Assembly: GCF_029581195.1 (NCBI RefSeq) | Contig: NZ_CP120737.1 | Coordinates: 3,883,001 to 3,947,000, forward strand | From: Solwaraspora sp. WMMD791 | GTDB lineage: Bacteria; Actinomycetota; Actinomycetes; Mycobacteriales; Micromonosporaceae | DNA: 64,000 nucleotides | Reading direction: 5' to 3' | Shown here: piece after piece, positions 1,411-62,145 of the stretch | How positions within the stretch are numbered: the stretch's first letter is position 1 | Layout: every line of letters begins with the position of its first letter | Notes under the pieces: generated by a model | Told to the model about the DNA's origin: nothing | Seen by the model: the letters and a program-made list of their open reading frames with translations, nothing else | Database searches by the model: none | Position numbers and translations under genes: made by a program

Positions 1411-1462
1411 CGCGTCATCGGCGTACTCGGCGTACACGGCAGCGCCCGCCTCCCCTCAAGAT

Positions 1463-1530
1463 CCCGACGATCTTGCAGTTATCGTTGGACAAAGTAGACA
1501 AATCCTCTCGATAACTGCAAGATCGTCGGG
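1463..1530 (+). repeat. Interspersed inverted-repeat element, copy 1
   Basis: Perfect 22-bp inverted repeat: left arm 1463-1484, right arm 1509-1530. The 24-base loop holds the conserved blocks TTGGAC and GACAAA. It is the same family as the copies at 42.69 kb (same orientation) and 59.78 kb (opposite orientation). It lies in the nuoL-nuoM junction, and nuoL translates into it, ending at a TAA within the left arm. As RNA it would form a long stable hairpin, so it may end or attenuate transcription between nuoL and nuoM. No transposase is nearby; a REP-like or MITE-like nature is inference. Confidence 0.9.
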
Positions 1531-3329
1531 GAGGTGAGCAGGGTGAGGGCGGCGGTGAGCAGGGCGAGCAGCAGGGCTCCGGCCAGAACGAGGATCACCG
1601 CGAAGGGCAGTGGGGCGGCGGAACGGCGATCCAGAATGCCGCCAAGCCCCAGGACACCCCTACCGACACCGTTCACCGCCCCGTCCACACCACGTTCGTC
1701 GCCGACCTTGGCCATGGCTGCGAGCGCCACGATGGGGCGGACCACCACGGCCCGCTGCACCGCGTCCAGCCAGAACGCCGCCGCGAACGCCGGCCGCAGC
1801 GGCCCCAGCGCCTTGTCGGCCGGATCGGCGGCGGGGTTCCGCCGGTACAGCCACGCCGCCGCGCCGGCGCCCACTGCCAGCAGCAGCACCGGCAGCACCA
1901 GGTCGGCACCGACGTGGACCAGGTCACCCGGGGTGGCGCCACCGAGCCAGCCGGCGACGGTGGGGCTGAACGCGGCCAGGCCGAGCAGCGCCGCCGGCAC
2001 CGTCAACGCCAGCACCGGCCAGCGCATCAACGCCGGCGGGTCGTGTGGGTGGGCGCCGGCGGGCAGCCGGGACGGCCCGAAGAAGGTACGCAGCAGCAGC
2101 CGGGTGGCGTACCAGGCGGTGACCGCCACCCCCACCAGCCCGGCGGTCCAGACCAGCCAGCCCAGCCACGCTGGAGCCGGCCCGTCACCGGGATGCCGGG
2201 CCGCGTGGGAGGCCGCGTACAGCACGCTCTCCTTGCTCCAGAACCCGGCCAGCGGCGGCAGCCCGACAAGCGCCCCCAGCCCGACCGCCGTGGCGGCGAA
2301 GGTGACCGGCATCGGCCGGCGCAGCCCGCCCATCGCCGACATCAGGTTGCTGCCGACGGCGTGGATCACGCAGCCGGCGGCGAGGAACAGCAGCGCCTTG
2401 AACGCGGCGTGGGTGAGCAGGTGGAACAGGGCGGCCGACGGGGATCCGACGGCCAACGCACCGGTCATGTAGCCCAACTGGGAGACGGTCGACCAGGCCA
2501 GGACCCGTTTGATGTCGTCGGCGGCGGTCGCCGCGAACGCGCCGAGCAGCAGAGTGACGACGCCGAGTACGCCGAGCAGCACCAACGCGGCCGGGGCGGC
2601 GACGAAGATCGGGTAGAGCCGGACGGTCACGTACACCCCGGCGGCGACCATCGTCGCGGCGTGGATCAGCGCGGAGATCGGCGTCGGGCCGGCCATCGCG
2701 TCCGGCAGCCAGGTGTGCAGCGGGAACTGGGCGCTCTTGCCGGCCACCCCGGCGAGCAGCAGCAGCGCCGCCGTGGTGACCGTCGCCGGCGAATAGTCGT
2801 GGGCGAGCACGTCGGCGATCCGGAAGCTGCCGGCACCGATGCCGAGCACCGCGACGCCGAGCAGGAAACCGACGTCACCGACCCGGGTGACCAGGAACGC
2901 CTTCATGGCCGCCGCCGGGGCCTCGGGCAGCCGCCGGTCGTGGGCGATCAGCAGGTACGAGCAGGCGCCCATCACCTCCCAGCCGACCAGCAGCATGATC
3001 AGGTCACCGGCGACGACGACCAGCAGCATCGCGGCGGTGAAGAGGCTGACCTGGGCGACGTACGTCGGGTAGCGCTCGTCGTCGGCCAGGTAGGCGACGG
3101 AGTACAGCTGGACGGCGAGCGCCACCGCGGCGACCGCGACGGCGAGCAGGGCGGCGGGCCCGTCGAGCCGTACGCCGAGCGTGACGGCGAGCCCGCCGAA
3201 GTCGATCCACGACCGGGACACGTCCACTGTCGGCGCGCCGGCGGCCAGCAGGGTGACGGCGGCGGCCAGGGCCAGCGCTGCCCCGCCGACGCCGAGGACG
3301 GCGGCGACCCGGCGGCGGGTGGCGCTCAC
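1479..3329 (-). CDS. nuoL: NADH-quinone oxidoreductase subunit L
   Basis: Distal proton-pumping antiporter-like subunit of complex I, 616 residues and many membrane segments. Signatures include DLIMLLVGWEVMGACSYLLI, the lysine-bearing GKSAQFPLHTWLPDAMAGPT, and the H-rich ALFHLLTHAAFKALLFLAAG. The GTG start at 3329 overlaps the nuoK stop by four bases (GTGA), implying translational coupling. The C-terminus is odd: after the last hydrophobic helix the frame enters the inverted-repeat element and ends TILQLSRGFVYFVQR followed by TAA inside the repeat arm. The natural tail therefore seems to have been replaced or extended by the element. Total length is still normal for NuoL, so function is probably kept. 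Confidence 0.95.
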   Translation of the reverse strand: MSATRRRVAAVLGVGGAALALAAAVTLLAAGAPTVDVSRSWIDFGGLAVTLGVRLDGPAALLAVAVAAVALAVQLYSVAYLADDERYPTYVAQVSLFTAAMLLVVVAGDLIMLLVGWEVMGACSYLLIAHDRRLPEAPAAAMKAFLVTRVGDVGFLLGVAVLGIGAGSFRIADVLAHDYSPATVTTAALLLLAGVAGKSAQFPLHTWLPDAMAGPTPISALIHAATMVAAGVYVTVRLYPIFVAAPAALVLLGVLGVVTLLLGAFAATAADDIKRVLAWSTVSQLGYMTGALAVGSPSAALFHLLTHAAFKALLFLAAGCVIHAVGSNLMSAMGGLRRPMPVTFAATAVGLGALVGLPPLAGFWSKESVLYAASHAARHPGDGPAPAWLGWLVWTAGLVGVAVTAWYATRLLLRTFFGPSRLPAGAHPHDPPALMRWPVLALTVPAALLGLAAFSPTVAGWLGGATPGDLVHVGADLVLPVLLLAVGAGAAAWLYRRNPAADPADKALGPLRPAFAAAFWLDAVQRAVVVRPIVALAAMAKVGDERGVDGAVNGVGRGVLGLGGILDRRSAAPLPFAVILVLAGALLLALLTAALTLLTSPTILQLSRGFVYFVQR

Positions 3330-4915: not shown

Positions 4916-4953
4916 GTATTCCTCTGAGGAATGATTATTCCTCAGAGGAATAC
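4916..4953. repeat. AT-rich 17-bp inverted repeat between the glycosyltransferase gene and nuoI
   Basis: Perfect inverted repeat: left arm 4916-4932 (GTATTCCTCTGAGGAAT), four-base spacer, right arm 4937-4953. Each arm is itself nearly palindromic (ATTCCTCTGAGGAAT), so the site is also two 15-bp half-sites with centres 19 bp apart. It is conspicuously AT-rich for this genome. It starts 46 bases after the glycosyltransferase stop and lies 138 bases before nuoI. It could be a transcription terminator or a tandem operator for nuoI-M; the sequence alone does not decide. Confidence 0.8.
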
Positions 4954-19340: not shown

Positions 19341-19369
19341 GGCCATCCGGCAGGCTCTGCCGGATGGCC
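19341..19369 (+). promoter_or_regulatory. Perfect 13-bp hairpin covering the start codon of the AbiEi/DUF559 gene
   Basis: GGCCATCCGGCAG (19341-19353), loop GCT, CTGCCGGATGGCC (19357-19369): perfect 13-bp arms with a three-base loop. The right arm contains the ATG at 19364. In RNA it would bury the start codon; in DNA it is a palindrome suited to an autoregulating protein. It may also end transcription from the zinc-ribbon operon, 62 bases upstream. Confidence 0.7.
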
Positions 19370-20314
19370 CGCCCCGTCAAGGTGCCCCGTGAGTTGACTG
19401 TGGAACCCTTCGCCGGCAGCCGGGCGGTCGCCGCCGGCCTGATCACCAAGCGGATGCTCGCCGGCCCGACCTGGCGCCGGCTGCTCCACGACGTCTACGT
19501 GCATGCTGACGCCTACGACCCCGACGACCACCGGATGTGGTGCCTCGCCGTCGCAGTCCGTCTCCCACCCGGTGCAGCCATCTACGGGCTGAGCGCTGCC
19601 CTGCTCTGGGGCGTCGACCTGCTGCCACACCGGAGCACGGTGCCAGCGCCCGTGCACGTCGCCGTACCGACCAAGGCCAGGCCAGACCCACAGCCCCGGA
19701 TCCGGTACGCCAACCTGGCCCTCGACTGGGAGTACGATGTCACGTCACTGTCCGGGATGCCCGTCACCACCGGTGTCCGTACCGCCTATGACCTGGGGCG
19801 GCTCCTGCCCCGGGCCGACGCGCTCGTCGCCCTTGACGCGCTCCTGCGCCGCCGGACCTGCACCAGGACCCAGCTCAGCGCTTATGTCGATGCCCACCCG
19901 GGGCGGAGGCAGGTAAAACAACTCCGGGAACTGCTGATGCTCGCCGAGCCGTTGAGTGAGTCGCCGATGGAGAGCCGGCTCCGACTGCTGCTGCACGACG
20001 CCGGCCTACCCAAGCCCACCCCGCAGTACGAAGTGCGCACACCGGCGCCGGGCTCAACGGGCTCAGCCGACTCGGCAGTTGGCGGGAGGTTCATCGCCCG
20101 AGTCGACCTTGCCTACCCGGGGTTGAAGATTGCCATCGAGTACGAAGGTGACCACCACCGGGAGCAGGCCACCTTCCGGCGTGACGTGCACCGGTTCAAC
20201 GCCCTGCGGGCCGCCGGCTGGTTGGCGCTGCGCTTCACTGCCGACGACGTACTCCGGCGAAGTGAACAACTTACCCAAACCGTACGGCAGGCGATCGCTG
20301 AGCGGGCCGGCTGA
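19364..20314 (+). CDS. AbiEi-like N-terminal domain with C-terminal DUF559 (VSR-like nuclease fold)
   Basis: A 316-residue actinobacterial protein. The N-terminal half (about 1-110: AAGLITKRMLAGPTWRRLLH, DVYVHADAYDPDDHR, YGLSAALLWGVDLL) resembles AbiEi-type antitoxin winged-helix proteins. The C-terminal part (about 205-310: ESPMESRLRLLLHDAGLP, RVDLAYPGLKIAIEYEGDHH, FNALRAAGWLALRFTADDV) is a DUF559/VSR-like PD-(D/E)xK fold with its E...D...E-x-E residues. The family is widespread and usually solitary, and a toxin partner is not present here. The start is tied to the hairpin at 19341-19369. Role in defence or transcription control is unproven. Confidence 0.8.
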   Translation: MARPVKVPRELTVEPFAGSRAVAAGLITKRMLAGPTWRRLLHDVYVHADAYDPDDHRMWCLAVAVRLPPGAAIYGLSAALLWGVDLLPHRSTVPAPVHVAVPTKARPDPQPRIRYANLALDWEYDVTSLSGMPVTTGVRTAYDLGRLLPRADALVALDALLRRRTCTRTQLSAYVDAHPGRRQVKQLRELLMLAEPLSESPMESRLRLLLHDAGLPKPTPQYEVRTPAPGSTGSADSAVGGRFIARVDLAYPGLKIAIEYEGDHHREQATFRRDVHRFNALRAAGWLALRFTADDVLRRSEQLTQTVRQAIAERAG

Positions 20315-20321
20315 CCGCATC

Positions 20322-20378
20322 GAGTGGAGGGCCCAGGAACGTAATTCTCGCGGAATTACGTACCCCAGCCCTCCACTC
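20322..20378. terminator. Nested double hairpin after the DUF559 gene
   Basis: Outer arms GAGTGGAGGGC (20322-20332) and GCCCTCCACTC (20368-20378) enclose a second perfect hairpin, CGTAATTC (20340-20347), loop TCGCG, GAATTACG (20353-20360). It begins eight bases after the stop codon. Position suggests a terminator; there is no U-run. The AT-rich inner stem is unusual for this genome. Confidence 0.65.
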
Positions 20379-20496
20379 GCGAGTTCTCGACATGCAGCCA
20401 CGACAGCCCACGGCGGCGCACCTTCACGCATTGTGTCCAGGTAGTACATTGGCGTGACCGCCGAAAGCCAACCTCACAAGGTAGGGATGACGGACC

Positions 20497-42681: not shown

Positions 42682-42760
42682 CCCATGATCGCGACGATCT
42701 TGCAGTTATCGTTGGACGAATCGGACAAATCTTCTCGATAACCGCAAGATCGTCGGGATC
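42682..42760 (+). repeat. Interspersed inverted-repeat element, copy 2
   Basis: Core arms 42692-42711 and 42736-42755 (20 bp, one mismatch), extendable to 25 bp by flanking GATC. The 24-base loop (42712-42735) matches copy 1 at 19 of 24 bases. The left flank CCCATGATCG (from 42682) is shared with copy 3. It lies between the 5' end of the recQ-like gene and the 3' end of the glycerophosphodiesterase gene, both on the minus strand. Confidence 0.88.
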
Positions 42761-42771
42761 ACCTGGACCCG

Positions 42772-43905
42772 TCAACCGATGGCGGTACGGGCGGCCACGG
42801 CGGTGTCCGGGTGGTCGGCGAAGAGCCCGTCCAGCCCGAGGCCGAAGAAGAGTTCGTACTCGCTGGTGATGTCGCCGCGCGCGGCCGGGTCGGTGCCGAT
42901 GCGGTGGTCGGCCGCCAGGAACTGGTTCTCGGCCCGGAACGTCCAGGCGTGCACGACCAGCCGTACCCGGTGGGCGTCGCGGATCAGCGTGGTCGGCGGG
43001 CGCAGCGCACCGCTGGCGTCCCGGGGAACGATCAGGTCCTTGTTCGGGCCGACCCCGTCGGCGTAGCCGGCGATCCAGCGCAGCCCCTCCGAGGTGGCCA
43101 GGTCGGCGTAGGTGCGCCGGTCACCCGCGACGGTGAAGTCGTACGGGCGGCCGGTCGAGTTGAGCAGCTGCACCAGCCGTACGTCGATCATCGTGTCGAG
43201 TGCCCGTAGGTTGGCCGTCTCGAACGACTGGATGAACACGGCGTCGGACCGGCTGGTCAGCTTGTTGCGTCGCAGGGTGGCGACCAGCGGCTCCTCCAGC
43301 GGCAGCCCGATCGACCGGAAGTAGGTCGGGTGCTTGGTCTCCGGGTAGATGCCGATGGTCCGGCCCAGCCGCCGGCTCTCGCTGCGGGCCAGGTCGATGA
43401 CCTCCTGCAGGGTGGGCACCAGGAACTGACCGTCGAAAGCGGTGTTGGTCGGCCGGAGCTGCGGCAGCCGTTCGACGGCCCGCAGGGTACGCAGCTCGGC
43501 GAGGGTGAAGTCCTCGGTGAACCAGCCGGTGACGCTCACCCCGTCGATGGTCTTCGTGGTCCGCCGGTCGGCGAACTCGGGCCGGGTCGCCACGTCGGTG
43601 GTGCCGGAGATCTCGTTCTCGTGCCGTGCGACCAGCACGCCGTCGGCAGTCGGCACCAGGTCGGGTTCGATGTAGTCGGCGCCCTGGCGGATGGCCAGCC
43701 GGTACGCCTCCAGGGTGTGCTCGGGGCGGTAGCCACTGGCCCCGCGGTGGGCGATGACCAGCGGTTTCGGTTCGGCTTTCGACCCGTGGCGCGACGCGGC
43801 ACCAGCGGCGTCGGTCGCGCCGGTGGCACTGACAGCGGACGGGATCGCCATGGCGGCCAGCAGGGTGCCGGCGAGCATCATGACCGGCAGGGTACGCGAC
43901 AACAC
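42772..43905 (-). CDS. glpQ: Secreted glycerophosphodiester phosphodiesterase
   Basis: A 377-residue exported enzyme that hydrolyses glycerophosphodiesters to glycerol 3-phosphate and alcohol, recycling phospholipid or teichoic-acid breakdown products. Signal peptide at about 1-27 (MLSRTLPVMMLAGTLLAAMA). The GDPD TIM barrel shows the catalytic IAHRGASGYRPEHTLEAYRL, EPDLVPTADGVLVARHENEI (metal-binding Glu/Asp and His), IYPETKHPTYF and QSFETANLRALD, ending DGLFADHPDTA. All catalytic residues are present and the length is normal for the periplasmic GlpQ type. Divergent from ktrB across 220 bases holding tandem repeats. Confidence 0.92.
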   Translation of the reverse strand: MLSRTLPVMMLAGTLLAAMAIPSAVSATGATDAAGAASRHGSKAEPKPLVIAHRGASGYRPEHTLEAYRLAIRQGADYIEPDLVPTADGVLVARHENEISGTTDVATRPEFADRRTTKTIDGVSVTGWFTEDFTLAELRTLRAVERLPQLRPTNTAFDGQFLVPTLQEVIDLARSESRRLGRTIGIYPETKHPTYFRSIGLPLEEPLVATLRRNKLTSRSDAVFIQSFETANLRALDTMIDVRLVQLLNSTGRPYDFTVAGDRRTYADLATSEGLRWIAGYADGVGPNKDLIVPRDASGALRPPTTLIRDAHRVRLVVHAWTFRAENQFLAADHRIGTDPAARGDITSEYELFFGLGLDGLFADHPDTAVAARTAIG

Positions 43906-57062: not shown

Positions 57063-57321
57063 GCCGGCCCACCCCGGATGCACCACCGCCGTAGTCGGTG
57101 AGTGTCGATGGCCGGCTCCTTCAGGGTGACCCGCTGATCGTCTCCCACACTGACCCGACGCACAACCGCAGCCACCGTGCCGGTGGCGCGGCCGGTCGGA
57201 CCGTCGGATACGAGGGCGGGCATGTTCACAAACTAGGCCACGGGACCGTCGGCCGGTGACCCGGCCGGCCCAGGTCGGGCAGGATGGGGTCCACCCGACC
57301 CCGCTCCGGCAGGAGAGCCAC

Positions 57322-59733
57322 ATGGGCGCACCCCTCGTCGCCGCCGCGTACCGGGCGTTCACCCGGCCCCGCCGCCGGCCGGCCGCCGCGTTCGCCGCGT
57401 TCGCCGCGCTCGGGATGGTCGCCGCCGGCACCGTCGTCGACCTGCGCCCGCCGGCACCCCGCGACACCGACGCACCGGCCACGGCGTTCAGCGCTGACCG
57501 TGCGTACCGGCACGTCGAGCAGGTCGCGCGGCAGCCGCACCCGGTCGGCAGCCCCGCCAACGACGCCGTCCGCGACCACCTCGTCGACACGTTGACCGGG
57601 CTGGGTCTGGTGCCGGAGGTGCAGGAGACCGTCGGCGGCGAGGCCGGGCAGTTGAGCGGGGCCTCCGCCGGTGCCACCCTGGCCCGGGTCCGCAACGTGA
57701 TCGCCCAGATCCCCGGTACGGATCCCACCGGCCAGGTCCTGCTGGTCACCCACTACGACTCGGCGCAGGTCAGTCCCGGCGGCAACGACGACGGAGCGGG
57801 CGTCGGCGCCCTGCTGGAGGTGGCCCGCGCGCTGATCGAGGGCGACCGGCCACGCAACGACGTCGTACTGCTGTTCACCGACGCCGAGGAGGCCTGCCTG
57901 TGCGGCGCGTCGGCGTTCGTCGCCGGTCACGCGCTCGCCGTGGACCGCGACGCCGTGGTGCTCAACCTGGAGGCGCGGGGCAGCAGCGGCCCGGTGGTCA
58001 CCTTCGAGACCTCCCGGGGCAACGCCGGCCTGATCGACGTCTTCGGCCGCGCCGCGCCGCACCCGGTCGGTACGTCGTTCGCGGTCGAGGTGTACCGGCT
58101 GCTACCCAACGACACCGACTTCACGCCGTTCCTCGACGCCGGATTCGCCGGGCTGAACTCGGCGTACATCGACGGGTCGGCGGTCTACCACACCCCGCAG
58201 GACACCGCGACGTCGATGAGCCTTGCCAGCCTGCAGCACCACGGCGACAACACTCTCGGCCTGGCGCGCGGGTTCGGCGAGGTCGACCTGTCGGCACCGG
58301 CCGCCGACACCGACGCCACCTACTTCCCCACCCCGGCCGGGCTGGTGCACTACTCGGGCACGCTGACCTGGCCGCTGGCGGTGCTGGCCGCGGTGGTCGT
58401 CGGAGTGCTGGCCTGGCTGACCCACCGCCGGGGTCGGGCCAGCTGGCCCCGGCTCGCCGCCGGCGTCGGGCTGGCCGGCGTACCGCTGGTCGCCGCGCCG
58501 GCCGCCGCGCAGGCGCTCTGGGCCGTCGTGGTCGGGCTCCGGCCGCAGTACGCCGACCTGCTCGACCCGTACCGGCCGGTGCCGTACCGGCTGGCGGTGC
58601 TGGCGCTGACCGCGGCCGTGGTCTTCACCTGGTACGCCCTGCTGCGCCGTCGGGTCGGCCCGGCGGCGCTGGCCGTCGGCGGCCTGGCCTGGCTGGCGCT
58701 GCTCGGTCTGCTGCTCGCCGGGTTCGCCCCCGGCGGGTCGTACCTGGCGGTGCTGCCGGCGCTGGCGGGAGCCGCCGGGTGCCTGGTCGCGCTGTCGGTA
58801 CGGCCCACCGGTGCGTGGCCGGTGGTCGCGGTGACCGCCGGGGCGTCGGTCGGCGTACTGATTCTGCTGCCCACGGTGGTGCTGCTGTTCCCGGCGCTGG
58901 GTCTGGGGCTGGCCGGGGTCGGCGCGTTCGTCGCGGTGCTGCTGGCGTTCGCGGCGTTGCCGGTGCTGGACCTGGCCCTGCCGCAGGCCGGCGGGCAGCG
59001 GGGGCTACGGGCGGTCCGGGCCCGCCGGGTCGGGCCGGTGCCGGCGGTCGCCGCCGCGCTGGCGGCGCTGGTGCTGATCGGGGTCGGTCTGGCGGTGGAC
59101 CGGTTCGACGCCGACCGTCCGGTACCGACCCATCTGATGTACGCGTTGGACACCGACACCGGGCAGGCCAGGTGGTTGACCGAGGAGACCCGGCCGCAGC
59201 CCTGGACCGCCGGGTACGTCGACACGACCGCCACAGTGGACGCCGAGTTCCCGTTGCTGGGTGGCGCGCCGTTGGGTGCCGGGCCGGCCCCGGCGGCGGA
59301 CCTGCCGGCACCGGCGCTGGACCTGCTCGACGACACCGGGGGCGGCACCGACGGGCAGCGGACGGTGCGGCTGCGGCTGCTGCCGCAGCGCCCGGTACGG
59401 CTGGTGACGTTGCACGTCGCGGCCGGGTCGACGACGGTGGTGTCGGCACAGGTCGCCGGGCGGGACCTGCCGGTCGGTGCAGCCGCCGGCACCGACCACA
59501 CTGGGCCGTGGAGCTTCGGTACGGTGTTCCACGCCCCGCCGCCGCAGGGCGTGGAGGTCGTCCTGGTGCTGCGGGTCGACGACTCCGACTCCGGCTCGGT
59601 GCGGATCCGGGTCGCTGACGGCAGCGACGGCCTCCAGGACCTGCCCGGCTTCACGCCCCGCCCCGTGGGGGTGGGGATCACCGGCTCACACACCAGCGAA
59701 CTGGTCACCGTCGCCCGCACTTACACCTTCTGA
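57322..59733 (+). CDS. Membrane M28 family peptidase with C-terminal multi-helix domain
   Basis: An 803-residue protein from ATG 57322, preceded by AGGAGAGCCAC. N-terminal helix at about 24-40, then an M28 zinc peptidase domain at about 60-330 with the metal residues in LLVTHYDSAQVSPGGNDDGA, FTDAEEACLCGASAF, LNLEARGSSGPVVTFETSRG, NDTDFTPFLDAG and IDGSAVYHTPQDTA. About eight hydrophobic helices occupy about 350-590, then a strand-rich outer domain. This is the layout of ER-metallopeptidase-1-like aminopeptidases, here presumably exporting its active site to the outside. Substrate unknown. It converges on the GH9 gene with an inverted-repeat element between. Confidence 0.9.
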   Translation: MGAPLVAAAYRAFTRPRRRPAAAFAAFAALGMVAAGTVVDLRPPAPRDTDAPATAFSADRAYRHVEQVARQPHPVGSPANDAVRDHLVDTLTGLGLVPEVQETVGGEAGQLSGASAGATLARVRNVIAQIPGTDPTGQVLLVTHYDSAQVSPGGNDDGAGVGALLEVARALIEGDRPRNDVVLLFTDAEEACLCGASAFVAGHALAVDRDAVVLNLEARGSSGPVVTFETSRGNAGLIDVFGRAAPHPVGTSFAVEVYRLLPNDTDFTPFLDAGFAGLNSAYIDGSAVYHTPQDTATSMSLASLQHHGDNTLGLARGFGEVDLSAPAADTDATYFPTPAGLVHYSGTLTWPLAVLAAVVVGVLAWLTHRRGRASWPRLAAGVGLAGVPLVAAPAAAQALWAVVVGLRPQYADLLDPYRPVPYRLAVLALTAAVVFTWYALLRRRVGPAALAVGGLAWLALLGLLLAGFAPGGSYLAVLPALAGAAGCLVALSVRPTGAWPVVAVTAGASVGVLILLPTVVLLFPALGLGLAGVGAFVAVLLAFAALPVLDLALPQAGGQRGLRAVRARRVGPVPAVAAALAALVLIGVGLAVDRFDADRPVPTHLMYALDTDTGQARWLTEETRPQPWTAGYVDTTATVDAEFPLLGGAPLGAGPAPAADLPAPALDLLDDTGGGTDGQRTVRLRLLPQRPVRLVTLHVAAGSTTVVSAQVAGRDLPVGAAAGTDHTGPWSFGTVFHAPPPQGVEVVLVLRVDDSDSGSVRIRVADGSDGLQDLPGFTPRPVGVGITGSHTSELVTVARTYTF

Positions 59734-59776
59734 CCCCCGCCCCACCCGTACCCTGCCCCTCCCGCCGCCCCCTCCC

Positions 59777-59851
59777 GCGACGATCTTGCAGTTATCGCGA
59801 ACTTTTGTCCGTTTCGTCCAACGATAAGTGCAAGATCGTCGCGATCATGGG
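59777..59851 (-). repeat. Interspersed inverted-repeat element, copy 3 (opposite orientation)
   Basis: Arms 59777-59797 and 59822-59842 (21 bp, one mismatch) around a 24-base loop. Read on the minus strand, the loop matches copy 2 at 20 of 24 positions and the flank CCCATGATCG (up to 59851) is shared with copy 2. It sits between the ends of the convergent M28 peptidase and GH9 genes, where it could serve as a two-way terminator. Confidence 0.88.
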
Positions 59852-59880: not shown

Positions 59881-62145
59881 TCAGCCGCGACCCTGGTCGG
59901 CGATGAAGGCCGCGATCCAGGCCAACGGCGCGTTCCAGTTGATGGTCAACTCGTTGGTGGACCAGGACTCGATGTCGTCGACGTAGCAGAACTGCGGCGC
60001 GCAGCCGGTCAGCAGCCGCTGCGCCACCGGGTCCTGGATCGACGAGTTGGGGCCACCGGCTAGCGTGCCACGCGGCGGGTTCGGCAGCTCGGGGTTGAGC
60101 TGCCGGGCGTACCAGCGGGAGTGCTGGTTCTGCGACGACACCGTGCCGTAGCCGGTGACGTAGGAGATGTTGAGCGCGTTGCGGCCGAAGATGTAGTCCA
60201 TCGACTGCAGCACCCCGTCCCGGTACTTCTCCTTGCCGGTCAGGTCGTACGCCGTGGCGATCACGATCGCGTTGTTCACGACGATGCTGTTCGAGCCCCA
60301 GTCGTAGATGTTGCCGGCCGGGGCGTACGGGACGCCGTACGGGTGAGCCTTGAGCGTGGCCAGGTAGCGGTCCGCCGCCTCGATCACCGACGCCCGCACC
60401 TGCCACCAGCCCGGCAGGCTGTTCGGCACCGTGGCCAGGGCCATCCGGCCCAGCGGCGCGGTCCACTGCCAGCCGAAGGCACCCTCCTTGAAGATGTCAC
60501 CGGTGTGGTGCGGCGAGGCGAGCACGAAGTCGCGGAACTCCCGTTCCCCGGTGGTCAGGTAGAGCTCGGCGGCCGCCCAGTAGAACTCGTCGGTGACGTC
60601 GACGTCGTCGTAGGGACCGCCGCCGATGGCGTCGGCCGGGTCGGCGTACATCTCGGGGTTGGCCTTGGCCGCCGCCCACGCGGTCCGGGCCGCGCGCAGG
60701 TTGCGCTCGGCGAAGGCCGGGTCGTACGGCGTGAACACCCGCGCCGCCTGGGCGGCGGTCGCCGCCAGGTTCAGGGTGGCAGCGGTCGACGGCGGGTGCA
60801 GCTCCCGCAGCTGGGCGTCCAGGTGCGGCAGCAGCGGCAGGCCGGTCCACGCGGCGTCGTGGATCTTGTGGTGGGCCATGCCGGCCAGCGGCTGCCCGGC
60901 CGGGACCTGCATCTTCAGCAGGAACTCCTGCTGCCAGCGAACCTCGTCGAGGATGTCCGGCAGGTTGTTGCCACTCTCCGGCAGGTCCAGCACGCCGTCG
61001 CGCTGCAGCCACGAGTTGCCCTGGCCGACCCGCAGACTCCGCTCGTACTCGTTCATCAGCTGGTAGACGGAGATGCCGCCGTTGACGACGTACTTGCCGT
61101 GGTCACCGGCGTCGTACCAGCCACCGGAGACGTCCAGGGTGTAGTCACAGACGCCGGGTTGGCAGGGCACCTCCAGGTCACCCTGGTTGGGGGCGACGCC
61201 GACGTGCCCGGCCGGGCGGCCGTAGCCGGGCCGCAGCTCGTCTGAAATCTCGATGCCGCTGCGCTGGGTGTAGTAGAACTTCAGCGCGTCGGCGCGCAGC
61301 TGGGTGTAGAAGCTGGTGCCGATCTCGAACGGGAAGCTGGTCTCGCCGTCGGCGACCAGGGTGTAGCCGGTGCCGGGCCGAACGAATCGGCTGAACGTGA
61401 TCGAGTGGACGTTCTGCCCGGAGGATTCGTCCAGCCCGCGCGGGGTCGACTTGCCGTTGACGACGACCTTGCCGCTGGAGTCGTACAGCTTCCAGGGCAG
61501 CGGGTCGGTGGCGTCGGTGACGAGGGTGGCGTTCTTCGGCCCCTTCGGCAGGTAGCCGACCTGGTTGACCCGCACCCGGGGTCCGGTGTCCGGCACGTAC
61601 TCCTCCGGTTCCGCCCCGCCGCGCAGCGAGACGTCGTCGAGGCAGAACCGCCACGGGTCGGCGCTGCCGCCGATCTGGAAGGCTACTTGCGCGTTCGGCA
61701 GGTCGGTCGGGGCGGTGAAGGTGAACGTGTAGTTGTTGCCGGAGACGCTGACCTCGGGGTTGGCCGCCATGTACTGGGTCCACGGATCGACCGGGAGTTG
61801 GATCAGCGCCCGGACCACCTTGTTCGGGGTCGCGGTGGCGAAGAACTTGTATTCGTACGTCTCACCGGCGACCAGCGGGACGTTGTCCTGGCCGATGATG
61901 ACGTCCCACGGGTTGACGGTGCCACCGGGGATGTCGGCACAGAGCTGCTGGCTGCTGGAGTCGAGGGTGATGTTGGGAGTTCCCCACCAGGGGTCGTGGC
62001 CGTCGTCGAAGGTGCCGTTGACGATCTGTTCCGGTGCCTCGTCCTGCGCGTGGGCAGGAACAGCGGCGGTGAGGGCGGTAGCGGTGAGCGCCGCCACCGC
62101 AGTAACGGCGAGCGGGACGGTCCGCCGCCGGGAGAGAATCGACAC
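59881..62145 (-). CDS. Secreted GH9 cellulase (endoglucanase) with CBM4_9-like and CelD_N-type domains
   Basis: A 754-residue exported glycoside hydrolase. Signal peptide (about 1-34, [20 protein letters not shown]). A CBM4_9-like jelly roll (about 38-180: [40 protein letters not shown]) would bind single glucan chains. An Ig-like CelD_N domain (about 195-290: [20 protein letters not shown]) precedes the GH9 (alpha/alpha)6 barrel (about 290-750). The catalytic base Asp is in [17 protein letters not shown] and the general acid Glu is in [17 protein letters not shown]. It cleaves beta-1,4-glucan. The perfect CebR-type operator immediately upstream predicts induction by cellobiose. Confidence 0.93.

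Follow-up and report, generated by a model that had tools for sequence, protein, structure and literature searches.

A dispersed hairpin family and the AbiEi-DUF559 nuclease-like gene that it brackets in Solwaraspora and related actinomycetes

Dispersed palindromes are common in bacteria, and the one dedicated partner that we know of for them is the HUH (Y1) transposase. The nearest analogues of the elements described here are REP/RAYT REPtrons. REPtrons (PMC8266576, PMC3733652) resemble our elements in having dispersed palindromes with patchy copy number between relatives, a gene bracketed by palindromes, and a pairing of enzyme type with palindrome type. CGTC-tagged REPs (PMC3733652) are similar in being short dispersed palindromes without a Y1 partner, and actinobacteria are not among the five phyla named for them. 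AbiEi proteins are reported to bind inverted repeats at their own promoter (PMC7319586).

We analysed a 64,000-nucleotide stretch of Solwaraspora sp. WMMD791 DNA (the window) and followed its hairpins through related genomes. By sequence, a family of ~70-nt hairpins with near-invariant arm ends (in this genome GATCTTGC/GCAAGATC) goes with a nuclease-like gene that two such hairpins, usually inverted, bracket. The hairpins and the bracketed restriction-enzyme-like gene point to an unrecognised system that would spread or read such hairpins. We consider a two-component hairpin-nuclease system the best explanation, at a probability of roughly 0.6.

The hairpin family in the window and in the genome

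Three hairpins occur in the window, within a few bases of where an earlier note on this DNA had placed them. Copy 1 is on the plus strand (arms 1463-1484 and 1509-1530, loop 1485-1508; 97.5 bits with a covariance model), with 22-nt arms that are 100% complementary, a 24-nt loop, and a CAAGATC motif (1457..1463, plus strand) on the 5' side of the loop-oriented strand. Copy 2, also on the plus strand (42690..42757; arms 42690-42711 and 42736-42757, loop 42712-42735; 94.7 bits), has arms that sit within a longer 26-nt match of 92% (42686-42761). Copy 3 is on the minus strand (59776..59843; arms 59776-59797 and 59822-59843, loop 59798-59821; 91.8 bits), and its arms are 95% complementary. These three were among the 40 copies used to build the model; with filters off, nowhere else in the window scored above 13.4 bits. 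RNA folds of both strands were 5 to 9 standard deviations below dinucleotide shuffles, and the window contained no known RNA family at gathering scores.

The note had also described a directional loop and a shared flank, and both descriptions hold: the loop gives each copy a direction, and CCCATGATCG stands beside copy 2 (42682..42691, plus strand) and copy 3 (59842..59851, minus strand), on the same side relative to the loop. The loop blocks that it had called conserved, TTGGAC and GACAAA, are present in all three window copies, but TTGGAC is not general in the family, given that the loop consensus of 40 aligned copies is roughly AnGGACAAAnCGGACAAATCTTCT.

Copy 1 separates two minus-strand genes, arranged in tandem, that encode NADH-quinone oxidoreductase-like subunits. 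The upstream gene, with Proton_antipo_M and Proton_antipo_N domains (1479..3329, minus strand), has its stop codon inside the hairpin; this nuoL-like gene thus gets its stop codon from copy 1, part of which encodes its C-terminal tail (1479-1530). A location inside an apparent nuo operon looks awkward for a strong terminator. Copy 2 is in a tandem gap at the 3' end of a GDPD-family gene (42772..43905, minus strand), and copy 3 lies between a convergent M28-peptidase gene (57256..59733, plus strand) and glycosyl hydrolase 9 gene (59881..62097, minus strand). The window also has a perfect 17-nt inverted repeat with a 4-nt loop at 4916-4953 (GTATTCCTCTGAGGAAT), AT-rich for this genome.

Across the 6.93-Mb genome (G000) we found 54 intact copies with a covariance model from 40 of its own copies (150 of 2492 first-look candidates scored), and 57 in the sister genome G006 (150 of 2532 scored). 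The weakest copies scored 68.1 and 71.0 bits, respectively, and the next places 18.8 and 23.5 bits. This gap implies that, within the scope of the search, copies are either intact or absent; no decayed copies were seen among the places scored in G000, nor in the window with filters off. The family is dispersed and REP-like, as had been suggested from the window. The expectation of many genomic copies was likewise sound, but the mean density is one per 128 kb, not one per 20 kb, the window being locally rich.

The consensus hairpin reads CGACGATCTTGCA(C/G)TTATCG, then ~24 nt with two GACAA motifs, then CGATAACTGCAAGATCGTCG. Just left of the arms, 34 of the 54 copies have (A/T)GATC, and 15 have its mirror just right. 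Among 45 orthologous G000/G006 pairs of equal length (two further pairs differ in length), GATCTTGC had changed at 0/360 and GCAAGATC at 1/360 positions, together 1/720, although only copies matching the model entered this comparison. Loop changes at the same sites amounted to 7-9% in the GACAA motifs and 24% in the spacers. The arm core seems to be held in place by selection. Paralogous copies in G000 differ at ~12 of 64 positions on average, which indicates that copies are not being made alike. One stem position (columns 20 and 58 of alignment A1) is unpaired in 25 of 40 copies, mostly as C opposite C, and the family retains this asymmetry. Covariation among G000 copies was not decisive (31 of 500 shuffles were as high). 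The loop lies on the leading strand in 19/54 copies in G000 (p = 0.04) and 22/57 in G006 (p = 0.11), a signal too weak to use, with ter taken as opposite dnaA.

Hairpins are concentrated at the 3' ends of genes, as judged with genes called by a simple custom codon score. The G000 copies comprise 28 in convergent, 24 in tandem and 1 in divergent gaps, with 1 unclear; the convergent share is thus 28/53 placed copies, against 15/112 control junctions from 144 kb of G000 (15 convergent, 81 tandem, 16 divergent). The same tendency holds for related hairpins in named genomes: 113 of 124 were placed (11 were at locus edges), with 50 convergent, 51 tandem and 12 divergent, and 86/647 of their control junctions were convergent. 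The siting at 3' ends has p = 2.5e-7 in G000 and p = 6.4e-13 in the other genomes, where the hairpins lie a median of 32 nt from the stop codon. Loop orientation relative to genes is not fixed (16 opposite and 8 same in tandem gaps). Like intrinsic terminators, the hairpins lie just behind stop codons; a U-tract of at least 4 T in the 8 nt after the arm was found in 0/54 copies on the loop strand and 2/54 on the other strand. We lean slightly towards fixed copies acting as gene ends.

A bracketed gene that accompanies the hairpins

The cognate partner gene of the G000 hairpins lies outside the window (G000:C1:3607797-3608660) and is bracketed by two G000 hairpins 1 kb apart. Hairpin pairs also bracket homologues in G006, G014, MAG AC_7 (G072) and Jiangella endophytica, the last with the same bracketing and DnaA-box-like sequences and a different hairpin type. 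A wider survey searched by protein, not by hairpin, and scored a gene as bracketed when two hairpins sharing a 9-mer lay one at most 400 nt before and one at most 350 nt after it. Bracketing was found for 36 of 47 partner-clade genes (32 genomes), with 11 failing, compared with 4/33 other DUF559 genes and 0/395 further genes 500-1400 nt long; these counts include related genes and more than one locus from some genomes, which are not independent observations. Without the four loci known beforehand through their hairpins (G000, G006, G014, G072), the count is 32/43. The 135-bit line that separates the partner clade from other DUF559 genes was set after a gap was seen (143 versus at most 128). 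The flanking hairpins are inverted at 27 of the 36 bracketed genes, direct at 5 and undecided at 4, with medians of 141 nt before and 27 nt after the protein match.

The bracketing bears on the reading that these are ordinary two-way transcription terminators that share sequence by chance, with the nuclease gene merely lying between two of them. Strong hairpins, 3'-end and convergent placement, and the unrelated hairpins that take the place of copy 3 in two congeners would all suit such terminators. The difference between partner and other genes contradicts the coincidence part, the arm core is more invariant than a stem needs, and U-tracts are missing, so that we regard this reading as very improbable.

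The partner protein joins an AbiEi-like, predicted DNA-binding half to one that matches nuclease families of the PD-(D/E)XK type (DUF559/MTES_1575). Alignment A2 covers 38 of the 47 partner-clade loci and, with L346 and L296 (Jiangella endophytica KE2-3), has 40 rows; at E 0.01, REase_MTES_1575 matched 40/40 of these proteins, DUF559 36/40 and AbiEi_4 20/40, with MTES_1575 and AbiEi_1 scores below the Pfam curated cut-offs for the proteins shown, and the DUF559 cut-off passed by the G000 protein and L346 and failed by the Jiangella protein. The N-terminal half matches PADLOC AbiEi models, and there is a weak profile match to the endonuclease-like structure 3hrl (E 0.021). In the nuclease half, E179, D207 and E218-x-D220 (L346 numbering) are conserved, D207 in 40/40, and the first G014 copy is without the E179 stretch; we read these residues as a PD-(D/E)XK-like set. 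A structure model from three sequences was poor N-terminally; its one good part, the C-terminal half, runs helix, three strands, strand, helices.

Upstream of 39/47 partner genes, and on the gene strand in 39/39, we found the 9-mer TTGTCCACA or TTATCCACA, compared with 11/33 other DUF559 genes and 4/694 control genes, in a test devised after the motif had been noticed at two loci. At 22 of the 38 loci shown, another box, differing at no more than 2 positions, lies 18-19 bp further along. We take TTGTCCACA to be the actinobacterial DnaA box. In the 3.2 kb at dnaA it is present 2 times in G000, 3 in G006 and 5 in G003; the 64-kb window has a single occurrence.

The partner gene co-occurs with the hairpins across genomes. 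A clear homologue (at least 168 bits) was present in 21/24 hairpin-rich and 1/6 hairpin-poor genomes of a first set of 30, and in 40 further genomes the partner was present in 12/20 with at least 17 pattern matches and 2/20 with 0 to 3 matches. Combined, these are 33/44 hairpin-rich versus 3/26 hairpin-poor genomes (p = 2.6e-7, kinship ignored). At the level used, 11/44 hairpin-rich genomes showed no partner; one of them, G089, has a bracketed homologue of lower score (143 bits). The three hairpin-poor genomes with a partner (G016, G206, G009) all have it beside other hairpin heads: the G016 gene has a GATCTAG hairpin at either end, the G206 gene is followed by a GATCATG hairpin, and in G009 a GATCATG hairpin lies ~530 nt before the partner match. 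These exceptions have 76, 136 and 142 matches to a looser pattern, and G078, G005 and G012 have 11, 18 and 48. The looser counts support other-head hairpins in the exceptions without proving them, since the G012 places listed are largely chance.

Two or three partner-clade genes occur in some genomes, and for several of these genomes (G061, G077, G102, G109, G188) the hairpin heads beside the genes differ; in G061, each of three partner-clade genes stands beside a different hairpin head. Overall, head type agrees with the protein tree (7 changes against a shuffled mean of 10.8, with 0/200 shuffles as low), a signal that comes through GATCTTG and GATCTAG; GATCATG (4 rows) and GATCAAG (2 rows) are not clustered. 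The tree was made by a quick method from 46 rows, 43 with a head label (L415, L437 and L460 have none, and single-flank loci carry the head of that hairpin). L458 was dropped for an in-frame stop, L346 replaces L421, which is the same protein, and the over-long translation of L404 was cut.

From sequence comparison, we hold it highly probable that hairpin and nuclease form a cognate pair. The suggestion in the earlier note that a protein recognises the hairpin is very probably right, and the partner is, with only slightly less assurance, the protein predicted to bind it. That the partner cuts the hairpin is rather likely, and for its spreading the hairpins we would give even odds.

DUF559 genes of other kinds also have hairpins nearby. 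The window carries a non-cognate DUF559/AbiEi-type paralogue of the partner nuclease (19364..20314, plus strand; 34% identity), with a private hairpin directly behind it (20321..20379; 27-nt arms, 85%) that is not of the GATCTTG type and has one copy in the 406 kb of G000 DNA searched. Homologues of this paralogue in G003 and G005 keep a similar hairpin behind them, and the other two non-cognate DUF559 genes found in G000 (L441, L442) each have a private hairpin behind. At L448 (G003:C1:7078375-7082286), a distant DUF559 paralogue lies between two AGGTGAGGCT...AGCCTCACCT hairpins, which shows that hairpins without a GATC head can bracket a gene too.

Distribution, persistence and a proposed mechanism

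Most G000 copies are shared with the sister genome, where 50 of the 54 sites are occupied; the four left out of this count are L010, a clean absence, and L011, L013 and L060, which were not counted. Nine of 10 sampled G003 copies are at a site also occupied in G000, and congeners G001, G002, G004 and G005 have 1, 1, 3 and 0 matches, respectively. Among the window copies, copy 1 has 64/64 core bases the same in G006 and in G003, with empty sites in G002 and G005; the hairpin is the same in all three species, yet its surroundings differ from G003 by ~20%. In the five genomes compared, copy 2 is present in G000 and G006 and absent from G003, G002 and G005. Copy 3 is present in G000, G006 and G003, and unrelated GC-rich hairpins stand at its site in G002 and G005. 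The earlier note had held that sites conserved in place among distant relatives would speak against a mobile element. Such conservation is seen in part: it is strong in G006 and G003, and the other four congeners have 0 to 3 matches.

No target duplication was seen when three empty sites (one in G006, two in G000) were aligned, as far as their edges, ill-defined because of the C/G-rich flanks, allow. At two of them, no more than about ten bases separate the convergent stop codons, and the third has a wider gap. The G006-only sites L178 and L213 were not used as empty sites because they stand opposite 1.7-2.8 kb of other DNA in G000. If the hairpins were MITEs derived from a classical DDE transposon, their arms being its terminal inverted repeats, we would expect such inverted repeats, dispersed copies and sites empty in one of two relatives. 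This reading fits poorly with empty sites lacking a duplication, with a bracketed gene that matches PD-(D/E)XK families and not a DDE transposase, and with cores that show no decay after insertion, and we rate it as highly improbable.

Hairpin abundance is patchy in the wider family of the window. The pattern GATCTTG-N40-70-CAAGATC had 0 to 8 matches in 151 of 200 genomes and 10 to 205 in the other 49, so that abundance ranges from 0 to 205 per genome, and a backward control pattern gave 0 or 1 match per genome. Within genus g17, copy number ranges from 0 to over 100 between genomes. Named carriers among at least 120 stretches, 80 of them listed, include Dactylosporangium, Virgisporangium, Micromonospora and Jiangella, and Nocardiopsis has one hairpin locus among the matches listed. 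The inner stem and loop of related hairpins vary from genome to genome, and a loop peculiar to one genome is often common to its copies, as in three Dactylosporangium fulvum copies. The exact-arm pattern of the G000 type found nothing in the named genome collection, from which near relatives may have been left out. With GATCWWG-N40-70-CWWGATC, G061 had 1155 matches and 17 other genomes tested had 11 to 238. G217 has 50 GATCTTG palindromes, several in another layout (GATCTTGGAGG...), and no partner match at 1e-8.

Carriage of the element or partner by plasmids or phages was rejected after searches of both. Plasmids had no partner match at 1e-20 and no place covering 80% of the element, and phages gave one weak match to the partner (56 bits).

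These patterns bear on the possibility that the family is a regulon and not a mobile element. The AbiEi-nuclease protein would then be a regulator or an RNA/DNA processing factor, the flanking hairpins its operator and terminator, and the dispersed hairpins binding sites behind genes, gained slowly by duplication. An arm core under selection in place, the lack of decayed copies, 3'-end siting and the 50/54 sites common to G006 all agree with a regulon. The swing in copy number within g17, the genome-specific loops shared by copies within a genome, and the mostly inverted bracketing of the gene, as expected of a spreading unit, argue against it, and we consider a regulon unlikely.

In the two-component hairpin-nuclease system that we favour, the AbiEi-like half would read the hairpin arms, as an inverted repeat or as an extruded hairpin, and the nuclease half would cut at the hairpin. 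The DnaA boxes could couple partner production to replication, a time when arms can extrude. Hairpins may be copied or captured in bursts at new intergenic places, without target duplication, and those surviving would be the ones behind stop codons. A settled hairpin could serve as a two-way terminator or insulator and as a binding site, and then be kept by selection. Against recent spread, most G000 copies are common to G006 and are therefore not recent. A bolder formulation falls a little short of even odds: a new class of self-spreading actinomycete element, built as hairpin, tandem DnaA boxes, AbiEi-like/PD-(D/E)XK nuclease and inverted hairpin, that spreads non-autonomous hairpins in time with replication; each lineage of the nuclease would recognise a head of its own, and the host would use copies as two-way gene ends.

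If true, a restriction-endonuclease-like partner would stand beside the HUH (Y1) transposase as a second and unrelated solution. It would also assign a function to AbiEi-DUF559 proteins, present several times per genome in these actinomycetes, offer a natural series of protein/hairpin pairs (GATCTTG, GATCATG, GATCTAG, GATCAAG) for direct recognition tests, and account for some long hairpins behind genes in these bacteria.

Comparison with known systems

The dispersed palindromes, the gene bracketed by inverted copies and the patchy abundance could also describe REP elements mobilised by a Y1 tyrosine transposase (RAYT), the partner that the earlier note had proposed to look for. Y1_Tnp domains (PF01797) numbered 0 at E 0.001 in G000 and in G003, both element-rich, and one in G006, against 4 to 12 in the four element-poor congeners, which contradicts a Y1 partner in this genome. 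The hairpins are also longer than REPs and have no conserved GTAG: GTAG or CTAC lies at most 12 nt from the arm in 1/54 G000 copies. We therefore give mobilisation by a RAYT almost no credence.

Among the open-access papers that our literature searches listed, none links dispersed palindromes with DUF559, AbiEi or Vsr-like genes, as judged by titles and abstract openings. The CGTC-tagged REPs (PMC3733652) differ from our hairpins in their 8-9-bp stems and in lacking an associated gene. AbiEi antitoxins of type IV toxin-antitoxin systems resemble the partner in its N-terminal half, which matches AbiEi models, but here this half is joined to a nuclease-like half and the inverted repeat is dispersed genome-wide. 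Vsr-like/DUF559 endonucleases are similar to its C-terminal half, which matches DUF559 and MTES_1575; the association here, in contrast, is with hairpins.

REPtrons share with our elements a gene between inverted palindromes (here 36/47 bracketed, 27/36 of them inverted), but the gene itself is unrelated. Compared with REPtrons, the protein is of AbiEi-DUF559 and not HUH/Y1 type, and the palindromes are ~70-nt hairpins with 20-nt arms and conserved loop motifs, with DnaA-box-like repeats before the gene. The lack of a Y1 gene and of a conserved GTAG sets the system apart from a REPtron, although it works like one. Protein, hairpin and boxes all differ from this nearest analogue.
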